This document shows, piece after piece, positions 55,748-62,268 of a DNA stretch of 64,000 nucleotides. Where the stretch lies: contig JAJTHE010000075.1 of the NCBI GenBank assembly GCA_021298815.1, positions 124,001 to 188,000 of the forward strand, in the 5' to 3' direction. Under the pieces are notes generated by a model that was given only the letters and a program-made list of their open reading frames with translations, ran no database searches and was not told where the DNA came from. Every line of letters begins with the position of its first letter. Positions within the stretch are counted from its first letter, which is position 1. This stretch comes from Betaproteobacteria bacterium (GTDB lineage: Bacteria; Pseudomonadota; Gammaproteobacteria; Burkholderiales; CAIKXV01). The position numbers and the translations under genes were made by a program.

Positions 55748-57391
55748 ATGGGACAGGCCAGAGGTTCCCGGGGCGCCGATGTACTGGCAGCCAGCCTTGC
55801 GCGCGCCGGCGTGCGCCGCGTGTTCTCGCTGTCGGGGAACCACATCATGGCGCTGTACGACGCGCTGCTCGACGTCGGCATCCCGATCGTGCACGTGCGC
55901 CACGAGGGCGCGGCGGTGCACATGGCCGACGCCTGGGCACGGCTGACCGGCGAAACGGGCGTGGCCCTGCTGACCGGCGGCCCGGGACATGCCAACGGCG
56001 TGTCGGCGCTGTTCACCGCGGGCGCGTCGGAGTCGCCCGTGGTGCTGCTGTCCGGGCAGGCGCCGCTGGGCCAGGTCGGCCGCGGGGCGTTCCAGGAAAT
56101 GGACCAGGTCGCGATCGCGGCGCCGCTGGTGAAGCGCTCGACCTGCGCCAGTTCGCCGCAGGCGGTCGGGCGCGAGTTCGCGCAGGCGGTGGCCACCGCG
56201 CGCGGCGGGCGCCCGGGTCCGGTGTACCTGTCGCTGCCTTCCGACGTGCTCGAGAACGACTGCACCGATCTGTCCTCCGCGTTGCCCGATGCGGCCGCGT
56301 TCGCCGCCGCGCCGCTGTCCCTGTCAGCGCTCGCCGCGGGACAGGTGGTCGCCGAACTGCGCGCCGCGCTGCGGCCGCTGGTGATCACCGGACCGTCGTC
56401 GATGACCCACCCCGGCCGCGCGCGCGCCGCCGCGCTGGAGAAGGCCTGCGGGGTGCCGGTGGTCGGGATGGAAAGCCCGCGCGGGGTGAACGACCCCTGC
56501 CTGGGTGCCTTCTCCGAGATGCTGGGAACGTCCGACCTGGTGGTGCTGGTCGGCAAGCCGGTCGACTTCACGCTCAAGCTCGGTGCCGCGATCCCGAAGG
56601 GTACGCAGGTGATCGTGATCGATCCCGAGCCGGCGATGATCGAACGCGCACAGCGCGCACTGGGCGCGCAGCGGGTGGTGCTGTCGGCGGTGGCCGATGC
56701 AGCCTCCGCGCTCGTCGCGCTGGCCGATGCCGCAACCGCGGCCGGTCACGCCGCGGGCGGCTGGTGCGCCGAGGTGCGCTCGGCCATCGCGTTCCGGCCT
56801 TCGACCTGGCCCACCCTCGTCGCCGCAGCACCGGGCATGCTGCATCCGGTCGAGATGTGCCGCGCGATCCAGCCGCTGCTCGACAGCCATCCCGACGCGG
56901 TGCTGGTCGCCGACGGCGGCGAGATCGGCCAGTGGGCGCAGGCCTGCCTGAAGGCGCCGAACCGCGTGATCAACGGTGTCGCCGGTTCCATCGGCTCCTC
57001 GTTGCCGTTCGCGGTCGCGGCCCGGCTGGCGCTGCCCGAGGCGCCGGTGGTCGCGGTGCTCGGCGACGGCACCTTCGGCTTCCATCCGGCGGAGTTCGAC
57101 ACTGCCGTACGCGAACGGGCGCCGTTCGTCGCGGTGGTCGGCAACGACCAGTGCTGGAACGCCGAACACCAGATCCAGCTGCGCGAGTACGGGCGCGAGC
57201 GGGCGCTGGGCTGCGAGCTGCTGGCGACGCGCTACGACCAGGTCGCGGCGGCGTTCGGTGGCCATGGCGAATGCGTCACCTCGGGCGCGGACCTTCCGGG
57301 CGCGCTCGAGCGGGCGGTTGCATCGGGGCGCCCGGCCTGTGTGAACGTGATGATCGAGCGCCTGCCGGCGCCGGTTTTTTCCCGCAACTGA
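55748..57391 (+). CDS. Thiamine-pyrophosphate enzyme, acetolactate-synthase-like
   Basis: A 547-residue TPP-dependent enzyme with the three-domain layout: pyrimidine-binding (catalytic E53 in HVRHEGAAVHMADAWAR), a central domain lacking an obvious FAD signature, and the PP-binding domain with G439-D-G441 and N466 (VVGNDQCWN). The family includes acetolactate synthase, benzoylformate decarboxylase and oxalyl-CoA decarboxylase, so 2-keto acid decarboxylation is the general prediction. It is the first gene of an operon with the CMD-fold selenoprotein candidate and a Bug receptor, suggesting catabolism of a carboxylate imported by the latter. No acetolactate synthase small subunit is near, arguing against branched-chain amino acid synthesis. 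Confidence 0.85.
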   Translation: MGQARGSRGADVLAASLARAGVRRVFSLSGNHIMALYDALLDVGIPIVHVRHEGAAVHMADAWARLTGETGVALLTGGPGHANGVSALFTAGASESPVVLLSGQAPLGQVGRGAFQEMDQVAIAAPLVKRSTCASSPQAVGREFAQAVATARGGRPGPVYLSLPSDVLENDCTDLSSALPDAAAFAAAPLSLSALAAGQVVAELRAALRPLVITGPSSMTHPGRARAAALEKACGVPVVGMESPRGVNDPCLGAFSEMLGTSDLVVLVGKPVDFTLKLGAAIPKGTQVIVIDPEPAMIERAQRALGAQRVVLSAVADAASALVALADAATAAGHAAGGWCAEVRSAIAFRPSTWPTLVAAAPGMLHPVEMCRAIQPLLDSHPDAVLVADGGEIGQWAQACLKAPNRVINGVAGSIGSSLPFAVAARLALPEAPVVAVLGDGTFGFHPAEFDTAVRERAPFVAVVGNDQCWNAEHQIQLREYGRERALGCELLATRYDQVAAAFGGHGECVTSGADLPGALERAVASGRPACVNVMIERLPAPVFSRN

Positions 57392-57407: not shown

Positions 57408-58016
57408 ATGCCACGTCTCGAACCGCTTCCGATCGGCGCAGCCCCTGAACTGAAGGAAATCTTCGAGCAGCAGCTCGCATCCGGGACCTACGTCGCCAAC
57501 AGCCAGCTGATCATGCAGCGGCGTCCCAAGCTGGTCCTCGCCTGGCGGGCGCTGCAGAAGGCGATGTTCGATCCGGATGGCGAGGTCAGCGTCGGCTTCA
57601 AGCGCCTGCTCGCCTACGTCGTCGCCAGGACCCATGGCTGCCATTACTGAATGGCCCACAACGCTGGGGGGTCTCTCCAGCAGGGCATCGCGGCCGACAA
57701 GCTCGACCAGGTCTGGGAATACCCGACGAGCCCCCTGTTCTCCGACGCCGAGCGGGTGGCCATCGAGTTCTCCATCGCCGCTGCTTCGCAGCCCAACGAG
57801 GTCACCGACGAACTGTTCGACCGCATGAAGCAGCACTGGAACGAGGGCCAGATCGTCGAGATCGTCGGGCTGGTCTCCTACTTCGGGTTCATGAACCGGT
57901 GGAACGACACGATGGCCACGCCGCTCGAGGAGGTTCCGGCTGAAACCGCCGCCAGGCACATCGCGAAGCATGGCTGGGCGCTGGGCAAGCATGGCCGGGG
58001 CGAGGCGGAAGGCTAG
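57408..58016 (+). CDS. Putative selenocysteine-containing AhpD/CMD-fold protein (in-frame TGA at 57648-57650)
   Basis: A 202-residue protein if TGA at 57648-57650 is read as selenocysteine (codon 81). The sequence before it ends in THGCHY and after it continues MAHNAGG, so the motif reads C78-H-Y-U81-M-A-H84, the CxxCxxH redox site of carboxymuconolactone-decarboxylase/AhpD-fold proteins with the second Cys as Sec. Both halves form one uninterrupted family sequence (KLVLAWRALQKAM; SPLFSDAERVAIEFSIAAASQPNEVTDELFDRM; EGQIVEIVGLVSYFGFMNRWNDTMA). A SECIS-like stem-loop lies just downstream. The RBS GAGGAGAG precedes ATG 57408, 16 bases after the TPP-enzyme stop. Alternative readings are a nonsense mutation or a sequencing error. 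Automated callers would split it at 57650. Confidence 0.82.
57654..57686 (+). promoter_or_regulatory. Bacterial SECIS-like stem-loop with GGTCT apical loop
   Basis: GCTGGGG (57663-57669) pairs with CTCCAGC (57675-57681), including one G-T pair, leaving the apical loop GGTCT (57670-57674). A lower stem GCCC (57654-57657) with GGGC (57683-57686) encloses an internal loop. The GGTCT loop begins 19 bases after the TGA. This matches the E. coli fdhF SECIS, whose GGUCU loop binds SelB at a similar distance. The stem lies inside the coding sequence, as is normal for bacterial selenoproteins. Confidence 0.75.
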
Positions 58017-58062: not shown

Positions 58063-59031
58063 ATGGAACCGCGGCTGATCCTGCTTGCTGCCGTGTCGTG
58101 CTGCACGGCGTCGATGACCCATGCGGCCGATGCCTGGCCGAACCGGCCGATACGGATGATCGTCCCCAACGCCGCCGGTGGCGCCAATGACGTCGTGGCA
58201 CGCCTGGTGGCGCAGTCGCTGGCGGCAAGGCTCGGCCAGCCGATCGTCATCGACAACCGCGGCGGCGCCGGCGGAGCGATCGGCGCCGAGATCGCCGCGG
58301 CCGCGACGCCGGATGGCTATACGCTACTGGCTGCCACCTTCGCCACGCATTCGGTCATCCCGCATGTGCAGAAGGGTACGCGCTATGACGCCCTGCGCGA
58401 CTTCACGCCGGTTGCACTGTTCGTCGTGCAGTACAGCATGCTTGCGGCACACCCGTCCCTAGCGGCAGGCAACGTGCGTGAACTGGTCGCGCTCGTAAAG
58501 GCACGACTGGGCAAGGTCTTCTATGCCAGCGCCGGCCCCGGATCGACCAGTCATGTCGCAGGGCTGATGTTCGCAAGGCAGGCCGGCATCGAACTGACGG
58601 TGGTGCCATACAAGGGCGGCAGCCCCGCCATCGCTTCCCTGCTCGCCAATGAATCCCAGTTGAACTTCGGACCGTTGCCGGCGACTGCGGCGCACATCCG
58701 TGCAGGAAGGCTCAAGGGCATTGCCGTCAGCGGTCCGGCGCGCAGCCTGTCCGCGCCCGAAGTGCCGACGGTGGCGGAATCAGGGGTGCCGGGATTCAGC
58801 CAGAGTTCGTGGGTCGGGCTGGTCGCGCCCGCGCGCACGCCGATGCCGATCGTCGAAGGGCTGCACCGCGCCGTCAACGAAGCGCTCGAATCGGCCGATC
58901 TGGTCAGCCAGATCGTGCGCACCGGTGCCGAGCCGGCGCCGCGCTCGCGGGCTGCATTCACTGCGTTCCTGCGCGAAGAATACGAGCGCTACGGCAGGCT
59001 GGTCCGGGAACTGGGCATCACAGCCGACTGA
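58063..59031 (+). CDS. Bug-family tripartite tricarboxylate transporter receptor
   Basis: A 322-residue periplasmic binding protein with a signal peptide (LILLAAVSCCTASMTHA, residues 5-21) and mature N-terminus WPNRPIRMIVPNAAGGANDVVARL. AAGGAN is the ligand loop; VVPYKGGSPAIASLL and LSAPEVPTVAESGVPGF are the other Bug blocks. The start ATG 58063 follows GGAG by 8 bases. It is third in the operon with the TPP enzyme and selenoprotein candidate, suggesting it delivers or senses their substrate. No TctAB in the window. Confidence 0.93.
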   Translation: MEPRLILLAAVSCCTASMTHAADAWPNRPIRMIVPNAAGGANDVVARLVAQSLAARLGQPIVIDNRGGAGGAIGAEIAAAATPDGYTLLAATFATHSVIPHVQKGTRYDALRDFTPVALFVVQYSMLAAHPSLAAGNVRELVALVKARLGKVFYASAGPGSTSHVAGLMFARQAGIELTVVPYKGGSPAIASLLANESQLNFGPLPATAAHIRAGRLKGIAVSGPARSLSAPEVPTVAESGVPGFSQSSWVGLVAPARTPMPIVEGLHRAVNEALESADLVSQIVRTGAEPAPRSRAAFTAFLREEYERYGRLVRELGITAD

Positions 59032-59051: not shown

Positions 59052-60302
59052 TCAGGCACGGCGCACCAGCCCGTCCAGCGAACGGTCCCAGGTCGCGCCC
59101 GGGAAGAGGTCGGCGAGCCGCCGCTCCGGCAACCCGAAGATGCGTGCAAGCGGCTGCGCGATGACTGCGCGGAAGTCGTGCAGCACCGGCAGGTCGCGGC
59201 CTTCGTTCAGGTTGCCCCGCGCGAGCCCTTCCCAGCGGCCGTGCGCCTGGCCACCAGCCACCTGCCGGCCGATCAGCCACAGCGCGTTGCCGCGTCCGTG
59301 GTCGGTGCCGCGTGCACCGTTCTCGGCGCTGGTGCGGCCGAATTCGCTCAACACCAGCACCAGGTCGCCCGGGCGGTCGAAGTCGGCGTGCAACTGCACC
59401 AGGCCGCGCGCGAGGTTGGCGAAGCGGCTGGCCAGCAGCCCGGTGGCCGCGCCCTGGTTGGCATGGGTATCCCAGCCGCCGGCGGAGAGGAAGCCGATGC
59501 GCAGGGCCGGATCGGCGCGCATCAGTGCCGCCAGCTGCCTCGCCTCGCGCACCAGGCCCGCCGGATTGCCGGCGCCATTGTCCGCGGCCATCATCTCGGC
59601 CGCCAGTTCCTTCGAGGTCATCAGCCGGCTCTCGACGCCCTCGCGGAAGGCGCGCGACAGCCGGTCGTCGCCCGAATAGAGCTCGAGCAGCGCATCGCGT
59701 GTCGCGTCGTTGCCGATGACCCCGGCGCGTCCCGCCGCCTCGCCGCGCGGGATCAGCCGTGCGCGCACCGGTCCGGAGAGGATGTGCGGGTTCGCCTCGC
59801 CGACGCCGATCAGCGGCACCGCCCGCGAACGGGTGTCGTCCATCGCGGCGAGCCGGTTCAGCCAGCCGGGCGCGCCGGTCGACTGATCGGGCAGGCCGGT
59901 CTCCCAGTGATGCTGGGCTTCGAAGTGCGACCGGCTGCGGTTCGGCGACCCGGCAGCCGGTATCACCGCCAGCGAGCCCTCGCGCCACAGCGGCAGCAGC
60001 GGCGCCAGCGCCGGATGCAGGGCGAAGCGTGCATCGAGTTCGATCGAGGTCGCTGCCGTGCCGTCGGGCGCGGCCACTGCGATGGTCGGGCGCAGCCTGG
60101 TGTAATCTGGGTCCGACCACGGCACCAGCGCCGACAGGCCGTCGTACGCACCGCGCAGGAACACGACCACCAGGCGGCCGCGGTCGAGCGCCGGCGCAGC
60201 CTGGGCGAAGCTGCGTGGCGCGGTGAGCGCACCGGCCACCAACGTGCCGGAGGCCAGCAGGGTGCCGAGCAATCGGCGGCGGGTGATCGGGTCGGGCTGC
60301 AT
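59052..60302 (-). CDS. DUF1501 protein with Tat signal
   Basis: A 416-residue protein with a twin-arginine-like leader (TRRRLLGTLLASGTLVAGA), then the alkaline-phosphatase-like DUF1501 fold: VVVFLRGAYDGLSALVPWSDPDY, SRSHFEAQHHWETG, LSAGGWDTHANQ, and LSEFGRTSAENGARGTDHGRGNALW. The family is often paired with DUF1800, as here, and function is unknown, perhaps a metal-dependent hydrolase or sulfatase-like scaffold. The ATG 60302 (AAGGAG upstream) is preferred over a GTG at 60356 that would overlap DUF1800. Confidence 0.88.
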   Translation of the reverse strand: MQPDPITRRRLLGTLLASGTLVAGALTAPRSFAQAAPALDRGRLVVVFLRGAYDGLSALVPWSDPDYTRLRPTIAVAAPDGTAATSIELDARFALHPALAPLLPLWREGSLAVIPAAGSPNRSRSHFEAQHHWETGLPDQSTGAPGWLNRLAAMDDTRSRAVPLIGVGEANPHILSGPVRARLIPRGEAAGRAGVIGNDATRDALLELYSGDDRLSRAFREGVESRLMTSKELAAEMMAADNGAGNPAGLVREARQLAALMRADPALRIGFLSAGGWDTHANQGAATGLLASRFANLARGLVQLHADFDRPGDLVLVLSEFGRTSAENGARGTDHGRGNALWLIGRQVAGGQAHGRWEGLARGNLNEGRDLPVLHDFRAVIAQPLARIFGLPERRLADLFPGATWDRSLDGLVRRA

Positions 60303-60352
60303 CGATGGCTCCTTCTCGGTGGCCGCGGCTGCGCGGGCTGTCTGGGTGCCGT

Positions 60353-62005
60353 TCACTTGCGCATGAAGTCAGGGGCCGCCAGCGCCAGCGCGGCACGCGA
60401 GCCGGGCTCGACGCGACGTATGCGTTCGCGCGTGGGCTCGGCGTAGAAGGCGAGCAGGTGTTCCGGTTCGCCCAGCCCGCGCGCCAGTGCGGCGGCGAGG
60501 TCGGCGCGCCGGGTCAGCGACTCCGGCGTCAGCCAGGTCGCGGCATCGGTACGGTAGCCATCCGGAGTCTGCCATCCGTTCACCGGCTGGCCTGCGCTGG
60601 CGAGGAAGCCGAGGGTGAGCATCACCGGGGGCGGCGCTGCTGCACGGGTCGACACGCCGAGCGCAGAGCAGGCGAAGTCGTAGGGCGTCTTGAACAGTTC
60701 GTTCGCCGGGTCCCAGAACTCGGGGGACGCGACGAGCATGCGCATCACCCGGCGCAGGTCGCCGTTGCTGGCCAGGAACTCCGCGGCCAGGCGGTCGACC
60801 AGCGCGCGCGGCGGCTCGTCGGCGACGAAGAACTGCGCCAGGCGCAGCGAGAGGCGGCGCGCGGTGGCCGGACGGGCGGCAAGCATCGCGAGCGCCTCGA
60901 TGCCTTCGCGTTCGCCGCCCGCCGCACCCGGGCCACCGAAGCGCCGGCCGAGCACCGTCTTCTCGCCGGTGTCGTGCAGGCGCTCGACGAAGCGGAAGCC
61001 CGACGGGCCGTCCGGGTCCACCGTCCATCCGGTGAGCACCCGGGCGAGTTCGCGCACATCCTGCTGGGTGTAGCCGCCATCGATGCCGAGCGTATGCAGT
61101 TCCATCAGCTCGCGCGCATAGTTCTCGTTGATCCCGCGCACCCGGCCCTGCGGCCCGGGCGTGCCGTCGGCCACGTTCTGGTTCTGGTCGAGGTAGAACA
61201 GCATCGCCGGATGGCGAGCGCTCGCCAGCAGGAGATCCTCGAAGCGGCCGAGCACGTTGGGGCGGATCGCATGCAGCGAATAGTGTCCGACGAACGGGCG
61301 CACGGTCAGTCGTCCGGCGAACACGTTCATGTGGTTGAACCAGAACTCGGTCATGCGCGAGAGCAGCGGGTTCTCCACCGTCGGGTCGGAGCAGCTGATC
61401 AGCCGCCACGTGGCTGCCTGCCGCGCGCTGGCCACCGAGGAGGGCTGCACGGCTGCAGGCGCGGCGGCACCCTGCTGCTGCATCCGTTCCGGCGCGGGCG
61501 TCTGCTGGATCTGCATCTGCGGCATTTGGTGCATCTGCTGCTGGGGTGCAGCCGCTGCAGTGGCGGCCGCTGCGGCGGCGGCGGTCCGCACGGCCTTGAA
61601 CCGCTCCTCGCGTTCGCGCCGGGCCTCGGCGAACACCGTGGATAGCGCGGTCGTGACGGCAGGCAGATGGTCGGGCACGCGTGCCGGCTGCCGGCTGGCT
61701 TCGAACGCGCGGTCGATCTCGTCCAGCGCCCAGCCGCGCGCGCCACCCGCATGTGCCCGGATCGCTGCCGCGCGCTCCTCCGACGGCCAGTAGCCCAGGC
61801 GAGATGCCGCGCGCCAGACGGCTTGCGATTCGGTCAGCGCCGGGGGCTGCGGTGCTGCAGCGGCGGATGCCGGCCGGGACGAAACGGTGACCGCAGCCAG
61901 CAGGGCGAGGGCAGCGAACGGGGCCGTCATCGCGGCGATATCCAGCCTGCGCATCCTGCGCCCGTGCCGGGCAGGTCGATTCGGCTGGATCTGGACGGGC
62001 GGCAT
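60353..62005 (-). CDS. DUF1800 exported protein
   Basis: A 550-residue exported protein with a hydrophobic leader at about residues 30-50 (TAPFAALALLAAVTVSS). The DUF1800 core includes MTEFWFNHMNVFAGR, LLASARHPAMLFYLDQNQNV, GINENYARELMELHTLGI and LARVLTGWTVDPDG. A Gln/Met/Pro-rich low-complexity stretch lies near 160-200. The family is found beside DUF1501 genes in many proteobacteria and planctomycetes, and its function is unresolved. The start ATG 62005 has CCGGAGCG upstream; ATG 61954 is also possible. Confidence 0.88.
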   Translation of the reverse strand: MPPVQIQPNRPARHGRRMRRLDIAAMTAPFAALALLAAVTVSSRPASAAAAPQPPALTESQAVWRAASRLGYWPSEERAAAIRAHAGGARGWALDEIDRAFEASRQPARVPDHLPAVTTALSTVFAEARREREERFKAVRTAAAAAAATAAAAPQQQMHQMPQMQIQQTPAPERMQQQGAAAPAAVQPSSVASARQAATWRLISCSDPTVENPLLSRMTEFWFNHMNVFAGRLTVRPFVGHYSLHAIRPNVLGRFEDLLLASARHPAMLFYLDQNQNVADGTPGPQGRVRGINENYARELMELHTLGIDGGYTQQDVRELARVLTGWTVDPDGPSGFRFVERLHDTGEKTVLGRRFGGPGAAGGEREGIEALAMLAARPATARRLSLRLAQFFVADEPPRALVDRLAAEFLASNGDLRRVMRMLVASPEFWDPANELFKTPYDFACSALGVSTRAAAPPPVMLTLGFLASAGQPVNGWQTPDGYRTDAATWLTPESLTRRADLAAALARGLGEPEHLLAFYAEPTRERIRRVEPGSRAALALAAPDFMRK

Positions 62006-62268
62006 GGACAACGCTCCGGCAGGCAGTTTCGGGTGGGGTGGGAAGAGAAGGGCAGTAGAGGGGCATATGGCGCCCGGGTCGCTGGCGCCGGGGAGCCCGG
62101 CCAGCCGACGCCGAGGGTAGAGTTTACGCACGGAACTGCCGATTTCCAGTCTGTCCGGGAGGACCTTTTGGTGAGCAGTTGTTTCAGGTGTCGGCGGGAG
62201 GTCTGTCCGCTACAATGAAATTCCGGCGTGCCTGCCGACTTTTCCCAACCGCCCGCTGGAGACCTGCG
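62006..62268. promoter_or_regulatory. Divergent region between DUF1800 and TauD-type genes
   Basis: A 263-base gap without a gene. A perfect -10 box TACAAT (62211-62216) points towards the dioxygenase, with no good -35. GTCTGTCCG is repeated at 62149-62157 and 62201-62209, 52 bases apart. On the minus strand TAAACT near 62123 is a possible -10 for DUF1800. A GntR regulator encoded at the right edge may bind here, but no matching site was identified. Confidence 0.4.

Follow-up and report, generated by a model that had tools for sequence, protein, structure and literature searches.

The locus raises the question of whether a reading frame interrupted by a single TGA encodes one full-length selenoprotein, two separate proteins or a pseudogene, and which reaction a selenocysteine (Sec) enzyme would carry out there. 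It lies in a 64,000-nucleotide stretch of DNA, here called the window, from a Burkholderiales genome (G000), a metagenome-derived draft with 88% completeness and 4% contamination. The features of the window considered here are as follows.

55748..57391, plus strand: TPP enzyme, a relative of 2-hydroxyacyl-CoA lyase and benzaldehyde lyase, located 16 nt upstream of the putative selenoprotein gene
57408..58016, plus strand: putative selenoprotein gene of the Bmp8-like branch, encoding 202 residues with the AhpD/CMD fold; frame read through the TGA
57639..57641, plus strand: codon for C78, the partner residue of U81; 26 of the 27 aligned relatives have Cys here
57648..57650, plus strand: UGA codon 81, predicted Sec at the second position of CxxU, from the comparison of TGA with Cys and from the sel genes
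57657..57659, plus strand: codon of H84, three residues past U81, as in Bmp8; His in 25 of 27 relatives
57663..57681, plus strand: SECIS-like hairpin with a 7-bp stem and the loop GGUCU at 57670-57674, from pairing and compensatory change
58063..59031, plus strand: TctC/Bug receptor gene (Pfam PF03401), downstream

The TGA at 57648-57650 is the sole interruption of the frame and falls inside the motif C78-H-Y-U81. Under the standard code, ORF calling splits 57408-58016 into an 80-aa ORF (57408-57650) and a 121-aa ORF (57651-58016), the two truncated genes that the initial annotation had expected of standard annotation. Read through, the frame yields 202 residues, and the match to the Pfam CMD domain (PF02627) spans the break (residues 40-120, 31.8 bits, E 1.5e-7, above the gathering cut-off of 23), which bears out the earlier description of a continuous frame with TGA on the second Cys of CxxC. 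A GAGGAG-type ribosome site is located upstream of 57408, and sequence inspection revealed none ahead of the ATG at 57651. We interpret the gene as very probably encoding one full-length selenoprotein, a Bmp8-like oxidoreductase of the AhpD/CMD fold in which UGA 81 would be decoded as Sec.

Codon 81 was compared across the family. All 30 core sequences in our tree carry TGA at this position and, together with a tandem copy, make up 31 close UGA copies. These include the two other copies in the same genome. Seven of seven relatives from GTDB contigs have TGA, as do three copies added by a family search. Among 300 genomes of the order, we detected 21 close copies with TGA, including the three from the window's genome; the remaining relatives in these genomes comprised two Cys sequences (TGC), one Ser/Ser sequence, two divergent TGA sequences (GCEFU) and some of more distant kinship. 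Full-length relatives from outside the order that share the GW-x-x-GKH tail carry TGC or TGT. Homologues thus have TGA or Cys at codon 81, and the sole exception among close relatives encodes Ser there, retains neither active-site residue (L045, G140:C140:4842-5396; SRYS) and is probably without redox activity. One locus, L015, carries a tandem pair of Sec copies of the family (1625-2209 and 2259-2843).

On the tree, the Sec label requires three changes, compared with 16.9 in shuffles, and marks the core group (30 rows), a GCEFU pair and one remote sequence. In close pairs, Nei-Gojobori counts gave low pN/pS before and after the TGA alike, mostly 0.05-0.3; over all pairs, for which saturation is present, the medians were 0.52 upstream and 0.31 downstream. 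These ratios indicate that purifying selection acts upstream and downstream of the TGA.

The initial annotation had asked for a search of the genome for the Sec machinery, and all four components were found.

C23:36617-36708 (G000): tRNA-Sec, anticodon TCA
C23:36774-38669 (G000): selB
C23:38721-40052 (G000): selA
G000:C170:77386-78324: selD, with its own in-frame TGA

The tRNA-Sec gene, selA and selB form one cluster, on a different contig from the window gene. The in-frame TGA of selD occupies the position where Sec is usually found (HGGGUGCK), which makes SelD a selenoprotein as well. A selA gene scores above cut-off in 18 of the 19 genomes in which a close UGA copy occurs, the exception being an 84% complete genome, and is present in five of the 16 listed genomes of the order that lack a copy of this gene. 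A search for a Sec-containing FdhA that could explain the presence of the sel genes gave no match above cut-off in the 88% complete assembly.

A stem-loop with a GGTCT loop 19 bases downstream of the TGA, as previously described, is present at 57663-57681. Its sequence is GCTGGGG-GGTCT-CTCCAGC, with stem and loop beginning 12 and 19 nt past the TGA, respectively. The folding energy does not differ significantly from that of shuffles (z = -0.37), and the case for the hairpin rests for this reason on comparative evidence. Across 24 distinct sequences, 97.6% of stem cells are paired and nine cells have two-sided changes. The covariation score was reached by none of 500 shuffles, for an alignment with few covarying sites and two main clades. 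Stem pair 18-32 is C-G in 13 sequences and U-A in nine, a switch that couples a silent substitution (GCT/GCC) to a Gln/Arg replacement, and pair 21-29 is G-U or A-U. Sliding the 3' side of the stem by one to three columns reduced pairing to 30-62%, and the hairpin is absent from Cys relatives where tested. A hairpin of this kind with its loop at +19 follows only one of the 1195 TGA triplets on both strands of the window, namely the TGA at 57648, a count that is indicative since the pattern was defined after the families had been seen. An Rfam scan returned no match.

The genome contains three copies of this family (on C132, C153 and C36), and two more of its CMD-fold proteins carry a TGA in the motif.

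G000:C117:27084-27650: L080, putative CMD-fold Sec protein with the motif ECAYU
G000:C37:61303-61881: L082, putative CMD-fold Sec protein with the motif DCHYU

Both subfamilies are conserved elsewhere in the order, where relatives also have TGA (confirmed on the motif in nine C117-type and five C37-type sequences), and genome G100 holds a further variant, GCTYU. The two subfamilies have their own hairpins, CCGCGC-GGTCC-GCGCGG and CCGCAC-AGTTC-GTGCGG, with stems unrelated in sequence and the loop again 19 nt past the UGA. The genome is thus predicted to hold at least five Sec copies of the AhpD/CMD fold in three subfamilies. Such a number in one Burkholderiales genome extends the 2006 survey of Betaproteobacteria, which counted one family (fdhA only) and ten selenoproteins (PMC1794560). 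We found no paper on Burkholderiales selenoproteins under the search terms tried. Three Bug genes adjoin the C117 copy.

These data bear on the readings in which the TGA ends translation. A stop at the TGA with a restart at the adjacent ATG (57651) would give two separate proteins, and an ATG does follow the TGA directly (window 57651-57653) in 24 of 24 distinct core-family sequences, the same position being mostly Glu, Gln or Thr in Cys relatives. We nevertheless regard this reading as very unlikely: besides the missing ribosome site, the break would, judging from the structural model, cut the active-site helix and separate C78 from H84, each Cys relative is one continuous chain, the TGA is followed by AGC or GGG in the other Sec subfamilies, and the hairpin would be left unexplained. 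The chance that the gene is a pseudogene or a sequencing or assembly error, as might be suspected from a single draft metagenome assembly, is smaller still and close to negligible. Separate assemblies of about 30 close relatives contain the same TGA, a recurrence that by itself refutes that reading and excludes the sequencing error that the initial annotation had envisaged, and pN/pS is low past the TGA. Our analyses therefore support Sec recoding as first proposed, since the sel genes are present, the homologues keep TGA or Cys and the TGA is reproducible. The features that characterize bacterial selenoprotein genes are found together here, namely Sec machinery, a conserved UGA aligned with the Cys of homologues and a downstream hairpin with G/GU in its apical loop.

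The AlphaFold2 model of the window protein has a pLDDT of 92.8 and a pTM of 0.89. Bmp8 ranks first by Foldseek and VIA-align (Z 22.3, r.m.s.d. 2.2 over 182 residues), and a family profile matched Bmp8 at 5e-40, against 4e-17 for the next protein; the kinship is thus apparent in sequence, in fold and in the CxxC/U-xx-H motif. E115, E151, R164 and N166 are invariant in 27 aligned relatives. The relay described for Pseudomonas aeruginosa PA0269 and Mycobacterium tuberculosis AhpD consists of Glu, Cys, Tyr/His, Cys and His (PMC3141380). The window family lacks this arrangement (Glu 12 residues ahead of the first Cys, His four past the second), as 24 of 27 relatives have Arg at the Glu position, His is at +3 and Asn or Thr occupies +4. 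The CMD/AhpD-fold label of the initial annotation accordingly holds for the fold and fails for the AhpD type, as the protein belongs to a Bmp8-like branch without the AhpD glutamate.

We propose that tRNA-Sec and SelB decode the UGA at codon 81, directed by the intragenic hairpin with its loop at +19, and that the product would be a small all-helical oxidoreductase of the AhpD/CMD fold with the active site C-x-x-U-x-x-H. By analogy with relatives, the U81 selenolate may attack an electrophile, either a hydroperoxide or a halogenated or otherwise oxidized small molecule. C78 would then form a selenenylsulfide with U81 as the reduced product is released, and a thiol donor such as thioredoxin could regenerate the enzyme.

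The arrangement with a TPP enzyme and a Bug receptor noted in the initial annotation exists locally and is not conserved in relatives, many of which do have Bug genes nearby. Genomes of this type tend to carry many Bug genes, so this proximity may be incidental. Neighbors in relatives include genes for a pirin, an ABC-F ATPase, a ClpX-like ATPase and an FlK-type thioesterase, among others; as in the window, the C153 copy and its orthologue in G300 have TauD- and GntR-type genes nearby. Several ORFs in these analyses are long antisense frames in GC-rich DNA, and we did not take their strands at face value. The TPP-enzyme link was rejected as a general functional clue, as neighborhoods differ between relatives. 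Downstream of the Bug gene, a DUF1501 gene adjoins a DUF1800 gene on the minus strand (window 59052-62131).

Two readings of the substrate are compatible with the full-length selenoprotein. It could be an AhpD-type peroxidase, that is, a selenol/thiol hydroperoxide reductase acting in oxidant defense, a serious possibility that falls a little short of probable. Selenium commonly speeds peroxide reduction, which we counted in favor of this reading along with the AhpD/CMD fold and the CxxC-type motif, and the fold relative PA0269 has weak H2O2-reducing activity (PMC3141380). The replacement of the relay Glu by Arg, the position of the His, the far stronger profile match to Bmp8 and the lack of a visible AhpC neighbor around the window copy argue against it. 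Alternatively, the selenol could remove halogen from an organic halide, with Cys and Sec forming a selenenylsulfide, as in a Bmp8-like reductive dehalogenase. This reading draws on Bmp8 being the best match in sequence and fold, on the shared CxxC/U-xx-H and NRWN motifs and on the proposal that Bmp8 dehalogenates through oxidation of its cysteines to a disulfide (PMC5577590). Identity to Bmp8 is only about 26-29%, and genes for halogenated compounds were not recognized around most copies. We therefore consider it unlikely that the protein is a natural Sec reductive dehalogenase on the AhpD/CMD fold, used in the breakdown of halogenated compounds.

Sec in the CxxU motif of AhpD-like proteins was described in 2005 from 27 sequences (PMC1088965), was found in 299 instances in the GOS set (PMC2398784), is also covered in PMC13188914 (COG2128/TIGR01926) and is listed in 2022 and 2026 reviews. 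The remark of the initial annotation that Sec has been reported in such proteins is therefore correct, and the window family is best described as a new subfamily within a known kind. What is new is Bmp8 as the closest solved relative and a branch outside current NCBIfam cut-offs. The window protein scores 61.1 bits on TIGR01926 (cut-off 81.8), related to but outside this curated model, and 77.6 bits on its best NCBIfam match, NF053654 (cut-off 310), of which it is not a member. No NCBIfam model reaches cut-off for the window family or for the C117 and C37 types, so their Sec copies are likely annotated as truncated. A divergent TGA-containing group (L047, L048 and L116), with the motif GCEFU or GCPFU, lies nearer NF053654, yet below its cut-off (165 bits for L047).

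Comparison with known systems places the window protein among several relatives. The E. coli fdhF SECIS likewise has a GGUCU apical loop, at 18 nt past the UGA rather than 19, and differs in stem and host protein. The COG2128/TIGR01926 Sec proteins have the fold family, Sec at the second CxxC position and a post-UGA hairpin in common with the window branch, which is set apart by its Bmp8-like motifs, GW-x-x-GKH tail and occurrence in Burkholderiales; NF053654, a YciW-related (seleno)protein model, spans (seleno)proteins of the same fold. M. tuberculosis AhpD and the AhpD-like PA0269 share the fold and a CxxC-type center, M. tuberculosis AhpD being a weak structural match (Z 10.7); in the window family Arg replaces the relay Glu and His is one residue nearer, as in Bmp8. 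The debrominase Bmp8 (PDB 6ohi, 6ohj), which takes bromine off small molecules, has Cys at the Sec site, and its pathway genes were not seen here. Its mechanism has reportedly been likened to that of thyroid deiodinase, a selenoenzyme. Through the kinship to Bmp8, one can test directly whether a bacterial dehalogenase of the AhpD/CMD fold makes natural use of selenium; such an enzyme, if this were the case, would be the bacterial equivalent of thyroid deiodinase, built on a fold unrelated to it.
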